The position numbers and the translations under genes were made by a program. The notes below the pieces were generated by a model, which saw only the letters and a program-made list of their open reading frames with translations, had not been told where the DNA came from and searched no databases. This document shows positions 44,968 through 50,720 of a stretch of DNA of 64,000 bases, piece after piece. Positions within the stretch are counted from its first letter, which is position 1. Each line of letters opens with the position of its first letter. Source of the DNA: Maribacter thermophilus (GTDB lineage: Bacteria; Bacteroidota; Bacteroidia; Flavobacteriales; Flavobacteriaceae); the NCBI RefSeq assembly GCF_001020565.1, contig NZ_LDAS01000001.1, positions 1,154,402 to 1,218,401 on the forward strand, in the 5' to 3' direction.

Positions 44968-45990
44968 ATGAAAAAAGTAGTTTTAAGTGCTTTGGCACTA
45001 GCAATGGGGTCTTTTGTTATGGCTCAGAACGTAAGTAACGTTACGCAAGAAAGGGCCACCGCCGCAGCCACTGTTAATGTAGACCAGGATGGAAACGGCA
45101 ACAAATCCACTGTTGAACAAATTGGTGTTGACGAACACGGTACTACCGCTAGTAGCGTTAAGGTCAAACAACAAGGAAAAGACAATAAGTCTACCATAGA
45201 CCAAGGAGATATTTGGGACAATGGTGCCACCGCCACTGGAGTTGCCACCGATGTTAACCAAAATGGTATGGAAAACAACTCCATCATTAGTCAAGGAGGG
45301 CGTTTAAACGTGGCCGATGTTGATCAAGTTGGAGATAACAACTTATCAAAAATCGATGTTCAGGGAGGTTATAAAAACCGTATAAAAGTAAAACAAAACG
45401 ATGACGATAATAAGTCTACAGTTTGGCAAAACTGGTCTTATAACGAGGTATTCGTAACACAATCAGGAGACAATGCTTATAACGGAGCCAATGTATCGGA
45501 CGTAAACCAAACATCGGCAAATAGCTTGGTCGATATTGATCAGGTAGGTAGAAGAAACAACTCTACAGTTGACCAATATGGTGCCAACACTTCTGGATAT
45601 GGAACAGACCTTACCACAACTGTTAACCAGAATGGTAATGACAACAAGTCGGTAGTTTCGCAAACAGGAATCTCAAACCTTGTTTCAGTAGTACAAAACG
45701 GTAATGATAACTATGCTAAATCTACCCAAGATGGTGTATCCAATAAAATGTATACTACACAACGTAACGGTAACGGCAACAGAAGTTATGCATCACAAGA
45801 CATTACTACTTCTAACAGTGTTATAAAAACAATGCAACAAAACGGAAACAACAACATTAGCACAGCCAATCAATATTCCACAACAGACGCGATGATATCG
45901 GTAACACAAAGTGGTAATGGCAACAATAGCATTGTAAACCAAACATTGGTAGACAGCAACACGAGCGTTATTGTAAATCAAAGCAACTAA
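44968..45990 (+). CDS. csgA: Major curlin subunit-like amyloid repeat protein
   Basis: This 340-residue protein has a signal peptide (GSFVMAQ) and then about 12 repeats of the curlin type, spaced about 20-25 residues. The units have the pattern (V/I)xQxGxxNxSxxxQ, for example VNQNGNDNKSVVSQTG and VTQSGNGNNSIVNQ. Gln and Asn line up as amyloid ladder residues. It is more than twice the length of E. coli CsgA (~150 residues). Secreted subunits assemble on the cell surface as adhesive beta-helical fibres. It opens the operon csgA-csgB-csgE-csgF-csgG-lipoprotein and is separated from the rest by a hairpin. A/B assignment is by position and length. Confidence 0.9.
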   Translation: MKKVVLSALALAMGSFVMAQNVSNVTQERATAAATVNVDQDGNGNKSTVEQIGVDEHGTTASSVKVKQQGKDNKSTIDQGDIWDNGATATGVATDVNQNGMENNSIISQGGRLNVADVDQVGDNNLSKIDVQGGYKNRIKVKQNDDDNKSTVWQNWSYNEVFVTQSGDNAYNGANVSDVNQTSANSLVDIDQVGRRNNSTVDQYGANTSGYGTDLTTTVNQNGNDNKSVVSQTGISNLVSVVQNGNDNYAKSTQDGVSNKMYTTQRNGNGNRSYASQDITTSNSVIKTMQQNGNNNISTANQYSTTDAMISVTQSGNGNNSIVNQTLVDSNTSVIVNQSN

Positions 45991-46083: not shown

Positions 46084-46602
46084 ATGAAATACCGATCGTT
46101 TCCCTTTCTAATTGTTCTTTCCATTATAAGTTTATCCACACTAAATGCCCAAGGTATTATAGACGGCAATACAACTAATGAAAATGACCTGAACACCGGT
46201 ACCCAGCAGCTAAACTATTTTTTACAACAATCCAATGAAACCAACCACATTAACGTAAACAATACAGGTGTTTTTATCCATCAGATCGGAGACGATAACA
46301 CAAGTTCGGTTACGGCACAATCTCATGTTACCAATGTAGAAGTGAACCAGCTAGGAAATGCCAATACAGTAGATTTAACACTTAAAGCCGACGAAATAGA
46401 CTACTCGGTAACACAAAAAGGAAACAATAATCTGTTGTTGGAACACAGTACCCAAAACGGAAAACAATTATTGCAAAGAACAATACAGCAAAATGGCAAT
46501 AATCAAAATCTTGTAATATACGGCAGAAACAGCATTGTCGATAAAATGAAGATTACGATGGGCAATGGCAGCCAGAGCATAATCATTAGAAACACGAACT
46601 AA
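46084..46602 (+). CDS. csgB: Minor curlin (nucleator)-like repeat protein
   Basis: This 172-residue protein has a signal peptide (STLNAQG) and four to five imperfect curlin repeats, including IHQIGDDNTSSV, VNQLGNANTVDL, VTQKGNNNLLLE and IQQNGNNQNLVI. Its size and its place beside the large repeat protein match CsgB, which nucleates the fibre on the outer membrane. Repeats are less regular than in the major protein, as is usual for CsgB. Confidence 0.85.
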   Translation: MKYRSFPFLIVLSIISLSTLNAQGIIDGNTTNENDLNTGTQQLNYFLQQSNETNHINVNNTGVFIHQIGDDNTSSVTAQSHVTNVEVNQLGNANTVDLTLKADEIDYSVTQKGNNNLLLEHSTQNGKQLLQRTIQQNGNNQNLVIYGRNSIVDKMKITMGNGSQSIIIRNTN

Positions 46603-46618
46603 AGTTTCCTTGTCCACC

Positions 46619-47392
46619 ATGGCTAAACGTTTTTATATTTTATTTTTCCTTATCCTTTTTATAGGGCCAATGATCAGAGCTCAAAACTTCAATAAAGAAG
46701 TAGAGGCTAAAATAAATATAGACTCAAAGGGTGTGTTAACCGACATTATCTTCTCTGCCTACAACAAAACAAGTATAAAAAAGAGTCTCAGGTATAAAGC
46801 TTTAATCGTAAAAAATGCGAGCCCCACATCCTCAAAGGAACAGTTCGATGACGAACAATATTTTGTCATCGAAGCGGGCGAGCGCAAAAATATCAGCAAA
46901 ACAACGTTATCATTGGAAAACAAAGAGAGAACAATAGTTTTTGTTCTCTTGTACGAAGAAGAAAAGGTAATCGGCAAAGACCGTATCGTAATCAACGGTT
47001 TTGAGGGAGAGGATGATATGCAGCCAAAAGTGGTTCAAAAAGACAATTTAATAGAGCCCAACAAAAGGAAGCAATCTCAAGACATAGATTTAATGAAGGG
47101 GCTTGTATTTGAAAATACAAAAACAAAACCTGGGCGGGATTTCTATCAAATGTTTTACCTAGCCTACCAAAACAATAACATCAATGGAAACGAAATCGTC
47201 AAGGTCGATGAGGTATTGGCCATAGGCGGCAACACCCAAATTAAGATATACGCAGGTAATGAACTGGTGGTTCAGTTCTTTTTAAATCCACGAAGTTCAT
47301 ATATCAAAGAAATGGTAGATCAATCCATTTTAAGAATCAACCAATATTTTATTCACAATAGGGCTATCAGTCAAAATACTATTCAATATTAA
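46619..47392 (+). CDS. csgE: CsgE-like curli adaptor with an extra N-terminal CsgH/CsgC-like domain
   Basis: This protein of 257 residues (I prefer the ATG at 46619 to a TTG at 46610) has a signal peptide (GPMIRAQ). The C-terminal part (~155-250) matches CsgE: GRDFYQMFYLAYQNN, then IKIYAGNELVVQFFLNPRSSYIKEMV and a final helix. CsgE is about 129 residues in E. coli; here ~125 residues precede it. That stretch looks like an immunoglobulin-like beta-sandwich, with KKSLRYKALIVKNASPT, EQYFVIEAGERKNIS and TIVFVLLYEEEKVIG, the strand order of CsgH/CsgC, periplasmic inhibitors of curlin aggregation. CsgE identity is firm; the CsgH reading is inference. Confidence 0.85.
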   Translation: MAKRFYILFFLILFIGPMIRAQNFNKEVEAKINIDSKGVLTDIIFSAYNKTSIKKSLRYKALIVKNASPTSSKEQFDDEQYFVIEAGERKNISKTTLSLENKERTIVFVLLYEEEKVIGKDRIVINGFEGEDDMQPKVVQKDNLIEPNKRKQSQDIDLMKGLVFENTKTKPGRDFYQMFYLAYQNNNINGNEIVKVDEVLAIGGNTQIKIYAGNELVVQFFLNPRSSYIKEMVDQSILRINQYFIHNRAISQNTIQY

Positions 47393-47393
47393 T

Positions 47394-47786
47394 ATGAAAC
47401 TACTAACCTTTTTATCTTTTTTATTTACAATATCGGTATACTCGCAACAATTGGTGTATACTCCCAAAAATCCAAACTTTGGTGGAGAAACCTTTAATTA
47501 CCAATGGTTGCTAAGTTCGGCACAGGCGCAAAACTCCTTTACCGATGATCGTGGTTCGAACGACGAACAATCTGAGCTCGAATACTTTCAAGAAAGCTTA
47601 AACAGCCAACTTCTGGGGCAGCTTACAAGGTCCGTTTACAATTCTGAGCTTGGTGACGGCCTAGAGCCGGGTACTTTTAATGTTGGCGATCTGCTGTTAG
47701 AAATTTTTGAATCTGGAGAAGGCTTAGTCGTAAATATTCTTGACACCACTACAGGAGAACAAACCCAAATCATAATTCCGAACTAA
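47394..47786 (+). CDS. csgF: CsgF-like curli assembly protein
   Basis: This 130-residue protein has a signal peptide followed at once by the CsgF signature QQLVYTPKNPNFGGETFNYQ, then LLSSAQAQNSF. In E. coli, the mature CsgF N-terminus inserts into the CsgG channel and couples secretion to nucleation. It starts 1 bp after the csgE stop and is 5 bp before csgG, so translation is coupled. Confidence 0.93.
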   Translation: MKLLTFLSFLFTISVYSQQLVYTPKNPNFGGETFNYQWLLSSAQAQNSFTDDRGSNDEQSELEYFQESLNSQLLGQLTRSVYNSELGDGLEPGTFNVGDLLLEIFESGEGLVVNILDTTTGEQTQIIIPN

Positions 47787-47791
47787 AAAAT

Positions 47792-49183
47792 ATGAAACTT
47801 TACCAAAGTTCCCTCGCCATAGGGCTTCTTGTACTGCTATGTGGTTGTGGCACCTATTTTAACCAACCCTTGGCACCAAGCAAGGCAAGAATAGGAGAAA
47901 CCACCCAGAAATCTTATTATTTAAAAAACCTACCCTTGCCAAAAGAACCTATTGTCGTAGGGGTATATAATTTTAAGGACCAAACAGGCCAGTATAAAAG
48001 TGTTGAAAATGCCAGCACGTTCAGTACTGCCGTGCCACAAGGTGCGACTACGATGCTCATTAAAGCCCTAGAGGATTCTAAATGGTTTACCCCAATAGAA
48101 AGAGAAAATTTATCCAACCTTTTGAACGAGCGGAACATTATACGATCTACTCGGCAAGAATATACCGGAGACCAAAGCGGGCAACCAAATCTACCCCCAT
48201 TGTTATACGCCGGTATTTTACTTGAAGGGGGTATAATTTCATATGACACAAATATTATAACGGGGGGCTATGGTGCACGCTATTTTGGCACCGGTGGTTC
48301 TACACAATACAGGCAAGACCGTATAACCATATACCTTAGGGCGGTCTCTACCTCCAACGGAAAAATATTAAAGACCGTTTACGTGTCCAAGACTATATTA
48401 TCACAAGCACTGGATGCCAGTTTGTTTAAATATGTAAAATTTCAACGCCTATTAGAAGTTGAAACCGGTATTACTAAAAACGAACCTATACAATTGGCCA
48501 TCCAAAATGCCATAGAAAATGCTGTTGAATCACTGATAATAGAAGGCATACAGGACAATCTGTGGAGCACCATGGAAGGTACGGCAGTAAACGATTCTAT
48601 TGTTTCTTTATACAATCAAAGAAAACTGGAAGAGGAATCCACTCTTTTGTACAATAGAAAACAGGCCCCTCATGTACTAAAGAACAGTATAGGTATTTTT
48701 GGGGGTACTCCAGTGCTTAATGCCGATTTTTCAAAGAAATCCCTTGGTGCCGGTGGCGGAATAAAATATAGCCGTTACCTATCCCCTAAAATAGACATAG
48801 GTATAAAAGGGGATTATTTCTACTTTACCGGTGGCCAAAATTTCTATAAAGAATATATGTCCGGTAACTTTCAATTGGGATATACCATTTTACCGTTTGA
48901 TGATTTGACCCCATATATTTATGGTGGTATAGGAGGCATTTTCGATTTACGGTCACCAGACCCAAACCTTACCGAAGATACCTCGGGCATAAACCTACAA
49001 TACGGCCTAGCATTAAAATACAACATTAACCCTAGACTCTCCCTTTTCGTAAACGCAGAAAACAACCACACTACCAGTGACGCCATAGATGATGTGGTAA
49101 ATGGAAAAAGAGACGATTTCTATTATAATTTCTCTATCGGATTAGAGTGGAGATTTGGCAAAAACATGAATAAACGTAATTGA
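47792..49183 (+). CDS. csgG: CsgG-type curli secretion pore with C-terminal barrel-like extension
   Basis: This 463-residue lipoprotein (LLCGCG lipobox) matches CsgG over residues ~30-275: VGVYNFKDQTGQYKS, FSTAVPQGATTMLIKALEDSKWF, NLLNERNIIR, GGYGARYFGTGGSTQYRQDRI and SKTILSQALDASLFKYV. The pore is a nonameric outer-membrane channel for curlin. In the constriction region, the F of FSTAVPQ is kept, but the residues aligned with E. coli Tyr51 and Asn55 appear to differ. E. coli CsgG ends near residue 277; here ~170 residues follow with the pattern of a small outer-membrane beta-barrel (IGIFGGTPVLNADFSKKS... YGLALKYNINPRLSLFVNAE... YNFSIGLEWRFG). Confidence 0.93.
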   Translation: MKLYQSSLAIGLLVLLCGCGTYFNQPLAPSKARIGETTQKSYYLKNLPLPKEPIVVGVYNFKDQTGQYKSVENASTFSTAVPQGATTMLIKALEDSKWFTPIERENLSNLLNERNIIRSTRQEYTGDQSGQPNLPPLLYAGILLEGGIISYDTNIITGGYGARYFGTGGSTQYRQDRITIYLRAVSTSNGKILKTVYVSKTILSQALDASLFKYVKFQRLLEVETGITKNEPIQLAIQNAIENAVESLIIEGIQDNLWSTMEGTAVNDSIVSLYNQRKLEEESTLLYNRKQAPHVLKNSIGIFGGTPVLNADFSKKSLGAGGGIKYSRYLSPKIDIGIKGDYFYFTGGQNFYKEYMSGNFQLGYTILPFDDLTPYIYGGIGGIFDLRSPDPNLTEDTSGINLQYGLALKYNINPRLSLFVNAENNHTTSDAIDDVVNGKRDDFYYNFSIGLEWRFGKNMNKRN

Positions 49184-49190
49184 AAATATA

Positions 49191-50720
49191 ATGAGCATTT
49201 TTAAGAATCAATATTTTAAGGCCACATTTCTTATAGTCTTCTTATTACTAGTATCATGTGAAGAGGATACCATAGGCGATGAAGCCTTCGGAACTTTGGA
49301 AGGAAAAGTGGTTTCCAATAGTTTCAACGTTCCCCTAGAGAATGTAAAAATAACCACAAACCCTTCTTCTACTACCGTTTTTACTGATAAAGATGGGTAT
49401 TTCGTTATTGAGGATATTAGTATCGGCGACTATTCCGTACAAGCCGATAAAGATGATTTTGAGACTTCTTTTGAACCATCTACCATTTATAGCAATAAAA
49501 CCACTACGGTAGTTTTTGAACTGGATAGTGTGGCCTCTAAGAATTTACAACCGGCCATACCAACCTTGATTTCCCCACAAGACAAGGCAACGGATATCTC
49601 CAATCCCGTACAATTTGTTTGGTCTTCGTCTAAAAATGATTCCGATACCATTACCTATACATTTGAATTAAGGGAAGGCAATACGGGAGAAATTCAAATT
49701 TTTGAAAATATACAAGACACTACCCTAACTATCGATAATTTATCGGTGGGTGCAAATTATTTTTGGCAAGTTACCGCCAATGATGCTATCACAGAGTCTA
49801 CACAAAGTAAAATAAGCAGTTTTCAATTAAGAGGAATTGAAAACAACAGGTTTTTATATGTTAGAACGCTTAACGGAAACAATGTTATCTTTTCGGGAGG
49901 AGAACCCAGTGGGGTAAACAACTCTGAGGTAAACCAACATGAAATTCAATTGACATCCTCTGAATTAAACTGTTATAGACCCAAAGCAAACAGAACCGTA
50001 AACAAAATAGCCTATATAAGTAATCAAGGAGGAGAATCACATTTATTTACCATGAATTTGGACGGAAGCGATAAAACACAATTGACCCAGAGTATTCCGA
50101 TAGCAGGGTTTAGAAACGATGAAATTGAATTTGCCTGGTCTAACAATGGTAACGTTATCTACTACCCTAATTTCAACAGTTTATATGCCATAAATATTGA
50201 TGGATCGGGGTTATCAAAGGTTTACGAATCACCTTCTGGAGAATTTATTACAGAAGTGGCGACCAACCTATCGAACAATTTAATAGCCATAAAGACCAAT
50301 GATGCCGCCGGATACAATGTTAAGATACAAACAATAAACCCAGTCAGTAACACCGTTACAAGAACTATAGTAGAAGGAATCCCCGGAGCTTTTGGAGGAT
50401 TGGACTATTCTATAAACGGAAACAAAATATTGTATACGAGAGATATTTCGGGAATTGAAAATGCTCAATACCGTCAACTCGATAGCCGAATTTTTGAATA
50501 CGACATTGCAAATGAGAGTTCCTTAGAGATAGATACCGATAAGCCAACTGGTTATAACAACCTTGATGTGGGATATGCACCAAACGAAGGTTATGTAATT
50601 TATATACTTACATCCAATGATGGTATATCTGAAAAGAAAATTTACAGAAAGGAAATTAATGCCAGCGAAGCTGACCCAGAATTGTTGTTCACCAATGCTT
50701 TCATGCCCAATTGGGAATAA
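49191..50720 (+). CDS. Curli-operon lipoprotein with regulatory-like, Fn3-like and beta-propeller domains
   Basis: This 509-residue protein has lipobox LLVSC (Cys23). Three parts can be seen. The first (~33-112) is a carboxypeptidase-regulatory-like domain (GTLEGKVVSNSFNVPLENVKITT, then TDKDGYFVIEDI). The second (~120-218) is an Fn3-like sandwich (PTLISPQDKATDISNPVQFVW). The third (~225-509) is a TolB/PD40-type propeller (IAYISNQGGESHLFTMNLDGSDKTQLT). It starts 7 bp after csgG, is in the curli operon and has no counterpart in E. coli csg. It may anchor or gate fibres at the surface; that is inference. Confidence 0.85.
   Translation: MSIFKNQYFKATFLIVFLLLVSCEEDTIGDEAFGTLEGKVVSNSFNVPLENVKITTNPSSTTVFTDKDGYFVIEDISIGDYSVQADKDDFETSFEPSTIYSNKTTTVVFELDSVASKNLQPAIPTLISPQDKATDISNPVQFVWSSSKNDSDTITYTFELREGNTGEIQIFENIQDTTLTIDNLSVGANYFWQVTANDAITESTQSKISSFQLRGIENNRFLYVRTLNGNNVIFSGGEPSGVNNSEVNQHEIQLTSSELNCYRPKANRTVNKIAYISNQGGESHLFTMNLDGSDKTQLTQSIPIAGFRNDEIEFAWSNNGNVIYYPNFNSLYAINIDGSGLSKVYESPSGEFITEVATNLSNNLIAIKTNDAAGYNVKIQTINPVSNTVTRTIVEGIPGAFGGLDYSINGNKILYTRDISGIENAQYRQLDSRIFEYDIANESSLEIDTDKPTGYNNLDVGYAPNEGYVIYILTSNDGISEKKIYRKEINASEADPELLFTNAFMPNWE

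Follow-up and report, generated by a model that had tools for sequence, protein, structure and literature searches.

CsgG with a fused, predicted OmpA-like β-barrel in the curli operon of Maribacter thermophilus and its relatives

The curli operon and its gene products

The window, a 64,000-nucleotide stretch of contig NZ_LDAS01000001.1 of Maribacter thermophilus (positions 1,154,402 to 1,218,401 of the forward strand, assembly GCF_001020565.1), carries an operon for curli, the sticky amyloid fibres of bacteria, in which csgG lies together with curlin, csgE and csgF genes, all on the forward strand. The curlin subunit (44968–45990) is CsgA-like, with eight stretches matching PF07012 (E 1.1e-23), and is followed by a putative CsgA/CsgB-like protein (46084–46602), a weak assignment made from NF007470 at E 0.0052 only and from its position in the operon. 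Next come csgE (46610–47392), csgF (47394–47786; PF10614, E 4e-35) and csgG (47792–49183), and a conserved lipoprotein gene lies downstream (49191–50720), the product of which matches CarboxypepD_reg over the cutoff, and fn3 and PD40 below it. The gene order CsgE-CsgF-CsgG-lipoprotein recurs in 73 of the 78 related loci evaluated for neighbours; in two others, L050 and L059, CsgG is missing from the set of non-overlapping ORFs. Acidic residues after the lipobox resemble the surface-export signal of Bacteroidota, suggesting that the lipoprotein is exported to the cell surface, where it could represent a curli component not described so far.

The csgG gene is a single ORF of 463 codons from ATG to stop, encoding a protein that matches both PF03783 (CsgG) and PF13505 (OMP_b-brl); since Pfam detects both domains, the architecture is visible in databases. 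Its lipoprotein signal (47792–47848) ends at a lipobox cysteine, Cys19, which is invariant in the two alignments used here, a 78-sequence close alignment (A2) and a set of 18 diverse sequences (A1). A2 excludes the near-copies L054 and L061 and also L097, whose sequence begins at the edge of a contig. The CsgG core, described in the first-pass annotation as clear, is indeed so: residues 46–260 (47927–48571) match PF03783 at E 5.8e-66 and 222.2 bits, over a cutoff of 20.8, and correspond to the E. coli CsgG structures. The equivalog model NF011731 (PRK15184) scores 235.7 bits, under its curated cutoff of 505. The source genome has one PF03783 match, and a full-length profile found only the csgG of the window there, with no second full-length copy. 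Like E. coli CsgG (4uv3, 6si7 and 6l7a), the window protein is a lipoprotein, with a core homologous over about residues 28–284, encoded in an operon with csgE and csgF. Unlike the E. coli PDB chains, which stop after the core (at most 285 residues), it has 203 residues C-terminal to the Pfam core. A sequence search of the PDB up to E 1 retrieved chains under the name CsgG, all of them aligning to the core alone.

The CsgE protein carries a second domain as well. Its CsgE domain (PF10627) occupies residues 162–252, and about residues 30–132 (46697–47005) are predicted to form a seven-stranded, CsgC-like domain, for which CsgC was ranked first by Foldseek, while VIA gave Z scores of 12.5 for CsgC (95 residues aligned), 11.0 for CsgH and up to 12.2 for many other β-sandwiches. 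Sequence evidence favours CsgC: a profile of this domain matches CsgC of the PDB at E 0.0052, and a Tafi-CsgC match (E up to 1) was obtained in 22 of 61 members (best 5e-5), the window CsgE not being among them. The underlying CsgE alignment (A3) holds 60 of the 79 CsgE matches, 70 having passed a length filter and 10 more having been removed by hand. This N-terminal domain may be a chaperone acting against amyloid formation that has become joined to the cap protein of the secretion pore. Bacteroidetes are described as lacking csgC in the accessible text of Dueholm (2012, PMC3521004), and a Bacteroidetes CsgH sub-family is mentioned by Taylor (2016, PMC4838910), so that a CsgC/H-like chaperone was already known in the phylum; the words 'fusion' and 'fused' are absent from the accessible text of the latter.

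An eight-stranded barrel predicted after the CsgG core

The first-pass annotation had read the ~170 residues following the core as a small outer-membrane barrel, a prediction supported by Pfam, AlphaFold2 and fold comparison alike. PF13505 spans residues 315–455 of the window protein (E 3.2e-7, 31.1 bits against a cutoff of 28.7) and reaches E ≤ 0.01 in 63 of the 78 A2 members, the other 15 falling short. AlphaFold2 modelling with the 78 sequences predicted a C-terminal helix (residues 264–283, 48581–48640) and, after a linker (residues 284–297, 48641–48682), eight strands at residues 298–310, 320–329, 334–347, 351–365, 372–387, 399–411, 416–427 and 443–455, which together make up a predicted OmpA-like barrel from residue 298 to 455 (48683–49156). 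When residues 301–460 were taken in ten-residue blocks, pLDDT was 85–95 in 11 of 16; for the core (41–260) it was 44–66 in 13 of 22, and the overall pTM was 0.56; given this low confidence in the core, the placement of the barrel relative to the core is not fixed by the model. The monomer prediction, which had been proposed as a check, thus returned a barrel and not a periplasmic globular domain.

Foldseek placed CsgG chains at ranks 1–25, followed by OmpA and other barrels. In VIA-align, the core aligned with E. coli CsgG 4uv3 (Z 17.9, rmsd 7.7, 220 residues), and the best match to the barrel (residues 292–459) was the Legionella Dot/Icm porin III 9nh2 (Z 19.9, rmsd 2.5, 162 residues), followed by NspA 1p4t (Z 18.0), OmpA 1bxw (Z 17.5) and OmpW 2f1v (Z 17.3). 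A PDB sequence search with the extension alone gave no match up to E 5. The inside/outside alternation of hydrophobicity summed over the eight strands in A2 was 8.83, against a mean of 4.09 (sd 1.05) for within-strand shuffles, none of 20,000 of which reached this score; taken singly, strands 1 and 3 alternate weakly.

Closed OmpA-like barrels have an interior lined with charged and polar residues. Inward-facing positions of the same character are conserved in the family, namely Asp359 (54 of 78 sequences), Asn361 (71), Glu363 (63), Lys401 (73), Gln403 (73), Glu409 (57), Glu423 (59) and Asn425 (67), and on the strength of this polar, conserved lining the barrel interior is read as probably closed. 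That reading is weaker for the window protein itself, which keeps only Gln403, Glu423 and Asn425 of these eight consensus residues; its other five are Asn359, Gln361, Gly363, Asn401 and Lys409. The last strand contains a putative BAM-type β-signal (residues 448–455, 49133–49156). Such a signal is defined by the pattern G-x-x-hydrophobic-x-hydrophobic, which is present in all 78 A2 sequences and, in its strict form, in 13 of the 18 A1 sequences.

The median identity to the window protein in A2 is 30% for the barrel versus 77% for the core, and this faster divergence is easier to reconcile with an anchor in lipid than with a closely fitted interface. In the linker, Leu286 (71 of 78) and Arg289 (77 of 78) are conserved, arguing that the attachment is fixed rather than loose. 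Tails of at least 20 residues extend beyond the last strand in 22 of the 78 sequences, and Lys, Asn, Arg and Glu are abundant when tails of every length are taken together; in the alignment, the tails of L047, L053, L062 and L083 reach up to 65 residues.

Several known systems resemble parts of this protein. OmpA, OmpW and NspA barrels (PF13505) share the fold, the number of strands and the aromatic last strand, but here the barrel is fused C-terminally to a subunit of an oligomeric secretion pore. PorG of the type IX secretion system, a small barrel attached to a ring in the periplasm, is a separate protein; its model NF052316 gave a weak sequence match over residues 370–448 (E 4.5e-7), although at 29.8 bits the window protein stays far under the cutoff of 130. 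The Legionella Dot/Icm porin III is likewise a small barrel in a secretion machine, according to its entry title, but belongs to another secretion system and is a 224-residue chain without a CsgG core.

Distribution and origin of the fusion

NF011731 was searched against 395 genomes of the phylum, none of which passed its curated cutoff. The search gave 52 matches of at least 170 bits, the next standing at 44 bits. Of these strong matches, 41 (from 41 genomes) have open frames of 454–552 residues, while the remaining 11 (from 10 genomes of one family) have frames of 296–344 residues. The family with the short forms is that of the green sulfur bacteria, as the FMO protein (PF02327) was found in nine of the ten genomes, the tenth being 88% complete. 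The core and barrel are encoded in one ORF in all 41 strong matches outside the green sulfur bacteria, confirming that the extension is part of csgG itself and not a separate gene. A barrel profile, built with 18 of the 41 surveyed sequences (the A1 rows) and hence independent of the other 23, gave a worst E-value of 2.5e-16 among these forms, for a row outside the profile, and matched none of the 11 green sulfur CsgG sequences. The first-pass annotation had suggested that a pore carrying extra barrels would be unusual; within the phylum the extension is not, since the long form is the rule there apart from the green sulfur bacteria. PF03783 alone was discarded as a survey tool because it also catches a different short paralog in family f18; L006 and L025 of that family have short PF03783 paralogs in frames of 246 and 275 residues, and no curli gene was recognised alongside them by eye.

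A long CsgG is also encoded in all 80 loci taken as the best of at least 587 tblastn matches to the full-length window protein, a set that is biased to full-length forms, unlike the 395-genome survey. The titles of these records are mostly Flavobacteriaceae or genera of that family, with a few broader or different names such as Sphingobacterium. Matches were obtained in 47 plasmid records, in seven of them over 80% or more of the protein length; these seven are presumably those of Hymenobacter (two), Spirosoma (two) and Salinibacter (three) in the organism tally, five of them being among the matches listed. The other 25 plasmid rows among the matches listed have 41–61% cover, of the core only, and Pseudomonadota names.

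A tree of the core (75 rows, with every fourth of the 80 loci, 20 of 80, a midpoint root, one genome's duplicates and flagged long-branch joins) places all 59 barrel-bearing rows on one side of a single branch (98/96), and the tree needs only one change; the green sulfur CsgG sequences group with three rows from alphaproteobacteria (100/96). The simplest reading of these core sequences would be one ancient fusion within the Bacteroidota lineage and another origin for the green sulfur CsgG. No separate barrel gene was found near csgG at E 1e-3 in the 78 loci or in the 41 surveyed loci, all of which have the fused form. In the 11 green sulfur loci, taken with flanks of at most about 5 kb, with L144, L145, L149 and L151 ending early at contig ends, one weak barrel-like ORF was detected (L143:9764-10432, E 2.3e-7). 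This ORF, on the opposite strand and some 4 kb away from csgG, was tentatively taken for an unrelated outer-membrane protein. As a separate observation, the green sulfur loci L141–L151 have curli genes with a barrel-less CsgG near the alphaproteobacterial rows, which suggests horizontal transfer.

The joining of two known folds in the barrel-bearing CsgG is genuine and conserved; it is new for CsgG within the literature searched and ordinary in the phylum. No description of a CsgG-barrel fusion was found in the open-licence literature searched. Dueholm (2012, PMC3521004) describes CsgG size as independent of CsgA size, and the words 'barrel', 'fusion' and 'C-terminal' are absent from its accessible text.

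Proposed architecture, alternatives and the constriction

In E. coli, nine CsgG subunits are described as forming a 36-strand pore (PMC7304575), the periplasmic side of which is capped by CsgE (PMC6957492, PMC6050966), and the C-terminal region of CsgG faces the periplasm (PMC12822426). By homology, the core of the window protein would form the same nonameric pore, and its periplasmic C-terminal helix would be followed by the short conserved linker leading back to the membrane and into the barrel, both ends of which would lie on the periplasmic side, given the usual topology of eight-stranded outer-membrane proteins. On balance we favour, with moderate confidence, the reading that the fused OmpA-like barrel provides each curli pore subunit with an additional anchor in the membrane and a spacer, lying beside the pore, and that as many as nine such satellites would surround the pore once assembled. 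A point against this arrangement is the periplasmic C-terminus of E. coli CsgG, which means that the short linker must reach back to the membrane. The rapid divergence of the barrel, the strict β-signal in only 13 of the 18 A1 members and the 15 A2 members short of the PF13505 threshold also count against it. A ring of nine barrels is geometrically possible, which does not imply its existence: in an ideal-barrel calculation with assumed radii, nine neighbours would be spaced 28.9–35.5 Å apart versus the 23.4–26.8 Å needed.

Other roles for the extension have to be weighed against this. A barrel that sits in the outer membrane mainly to dock a partner, be it the downstream lipoprotein or CsgF/CsgB at the surface, and not as a structural anchor, is in our view unlikely, although the lipoprotein gene directly follows csgG in all 77 loci with a following ORF and at least two acidic residues lie within the six after the lipobox in 65 of the 68 lipoboxes detected by pattern (79 lipoproteins examined). 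Within the survey, a lipoprotein match was obtained in 27 of the 41 loci, some of these matches being weak or non-adjacent and many loci being short, and the barrel-bearing L154, L155, L156 and L160 have no lipoprotein match in the 10–11 kb examined. The much faster evolution of the barrel compared with the core could also fit a small outer-membrane protein released from CsgG by cleavage once exported and acting independently of the pore, but the fusion is unsplit in 41 of 41 surveyed genomes outside the green sulfur bacteria and the linker is conserved at Leu286 and Arg289, which makes such cleavage highly improbable.

The two remaining readings concern the nature of the extension itself. OmpW-type eight-stranded barrels can have channels, and the window barrel has fewer charged residues in its interior than the family consensus, so that the satellites might be imagined as extra conducting pores in a ten-channel complex; the family interior, however, has a conserved lining of charged and polar side chains like that of closed OmpA-like barrels, and we regard this reading as very improbable indeed. 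A periplasmic or surface globular β-domain with no transmembrane barrel would agree with the position of the extension behind a periplasmic helix and with the weak alternation in strands 1 and 3, but is rendered improbable in the extreme by the eight-strand prediction, the fold matches to OmpA, OmpW and NspA, the overall hydrophobic alternation and the OMP_b-brl matches.

Returning to the anchor and spacer reading, an OmpA-like barrel normally needs BAM, and the β-signal in the last strand would be consistent with such a need. Wza, GspD and CsgG are described as having no BamA requirement in E. coli in a 2026 review (PMC13067283). A more far-reaching proposal, offered tentatively as one that may well not hold, is a 108-strand machine composed of a pore of the BamA-free type and nine BAM-inserted barrels, which would hold the pore in place in the membrane and bear a surface lipoprotein. 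If this were true, one polypeptide would use two outer-membrane insertion routes, and the contradiction between a BamA-independent core and a BAM-type barrel is the most testable part of the proposal. CsgG serves as a model for pore assembly without BamA. The fused barrel makes it testable whether such a fusion imposes BAM dependence, and what function satellite barrels would have in a secretion pore.

The constriction loop of the window CsgG (residues 66–81, 47987–48034) also departs from that of E. coli. The E. coli positions Tyr51, Asn55 and Phe56 of the mature protein, which correspond to Tyr66, Asn70 and Phe71 of the precursor, align with Val71, Thr76 and Phe77, in agreement with the first-pass annotation that Tyr51 and Asn55 appear changed; the third residue, Phe56, is kept. 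The Tyr51 position holds Tyr in none of the 78 or 18 sequences and the Asn55 position holds Asn in two of each set, while the Phe56 position is aromatic throughout (Phe, Trp or Tyr in 78/78; Phe or Trp in 18/18). The loop is one residue longer than that of E. coli, with Glu at position 72 in 71 of the 78 sequences. CsgG is in use as a nanopore, and this family gives a different constriction for such work, perhaps together with a membrane collar. In E. coli, the constriction is described as lined by these three precursor residues, with a second eyelet added by CsgF and Asn36 of its precursor (PMC7304575). The window CsgF has Phe at the position aligned to that Asn36, and Phe is likewise found in the commonest CsgF segment of the relatives, present in 31 of the 70 sequences fitting the pattern (76 CsgF matches).
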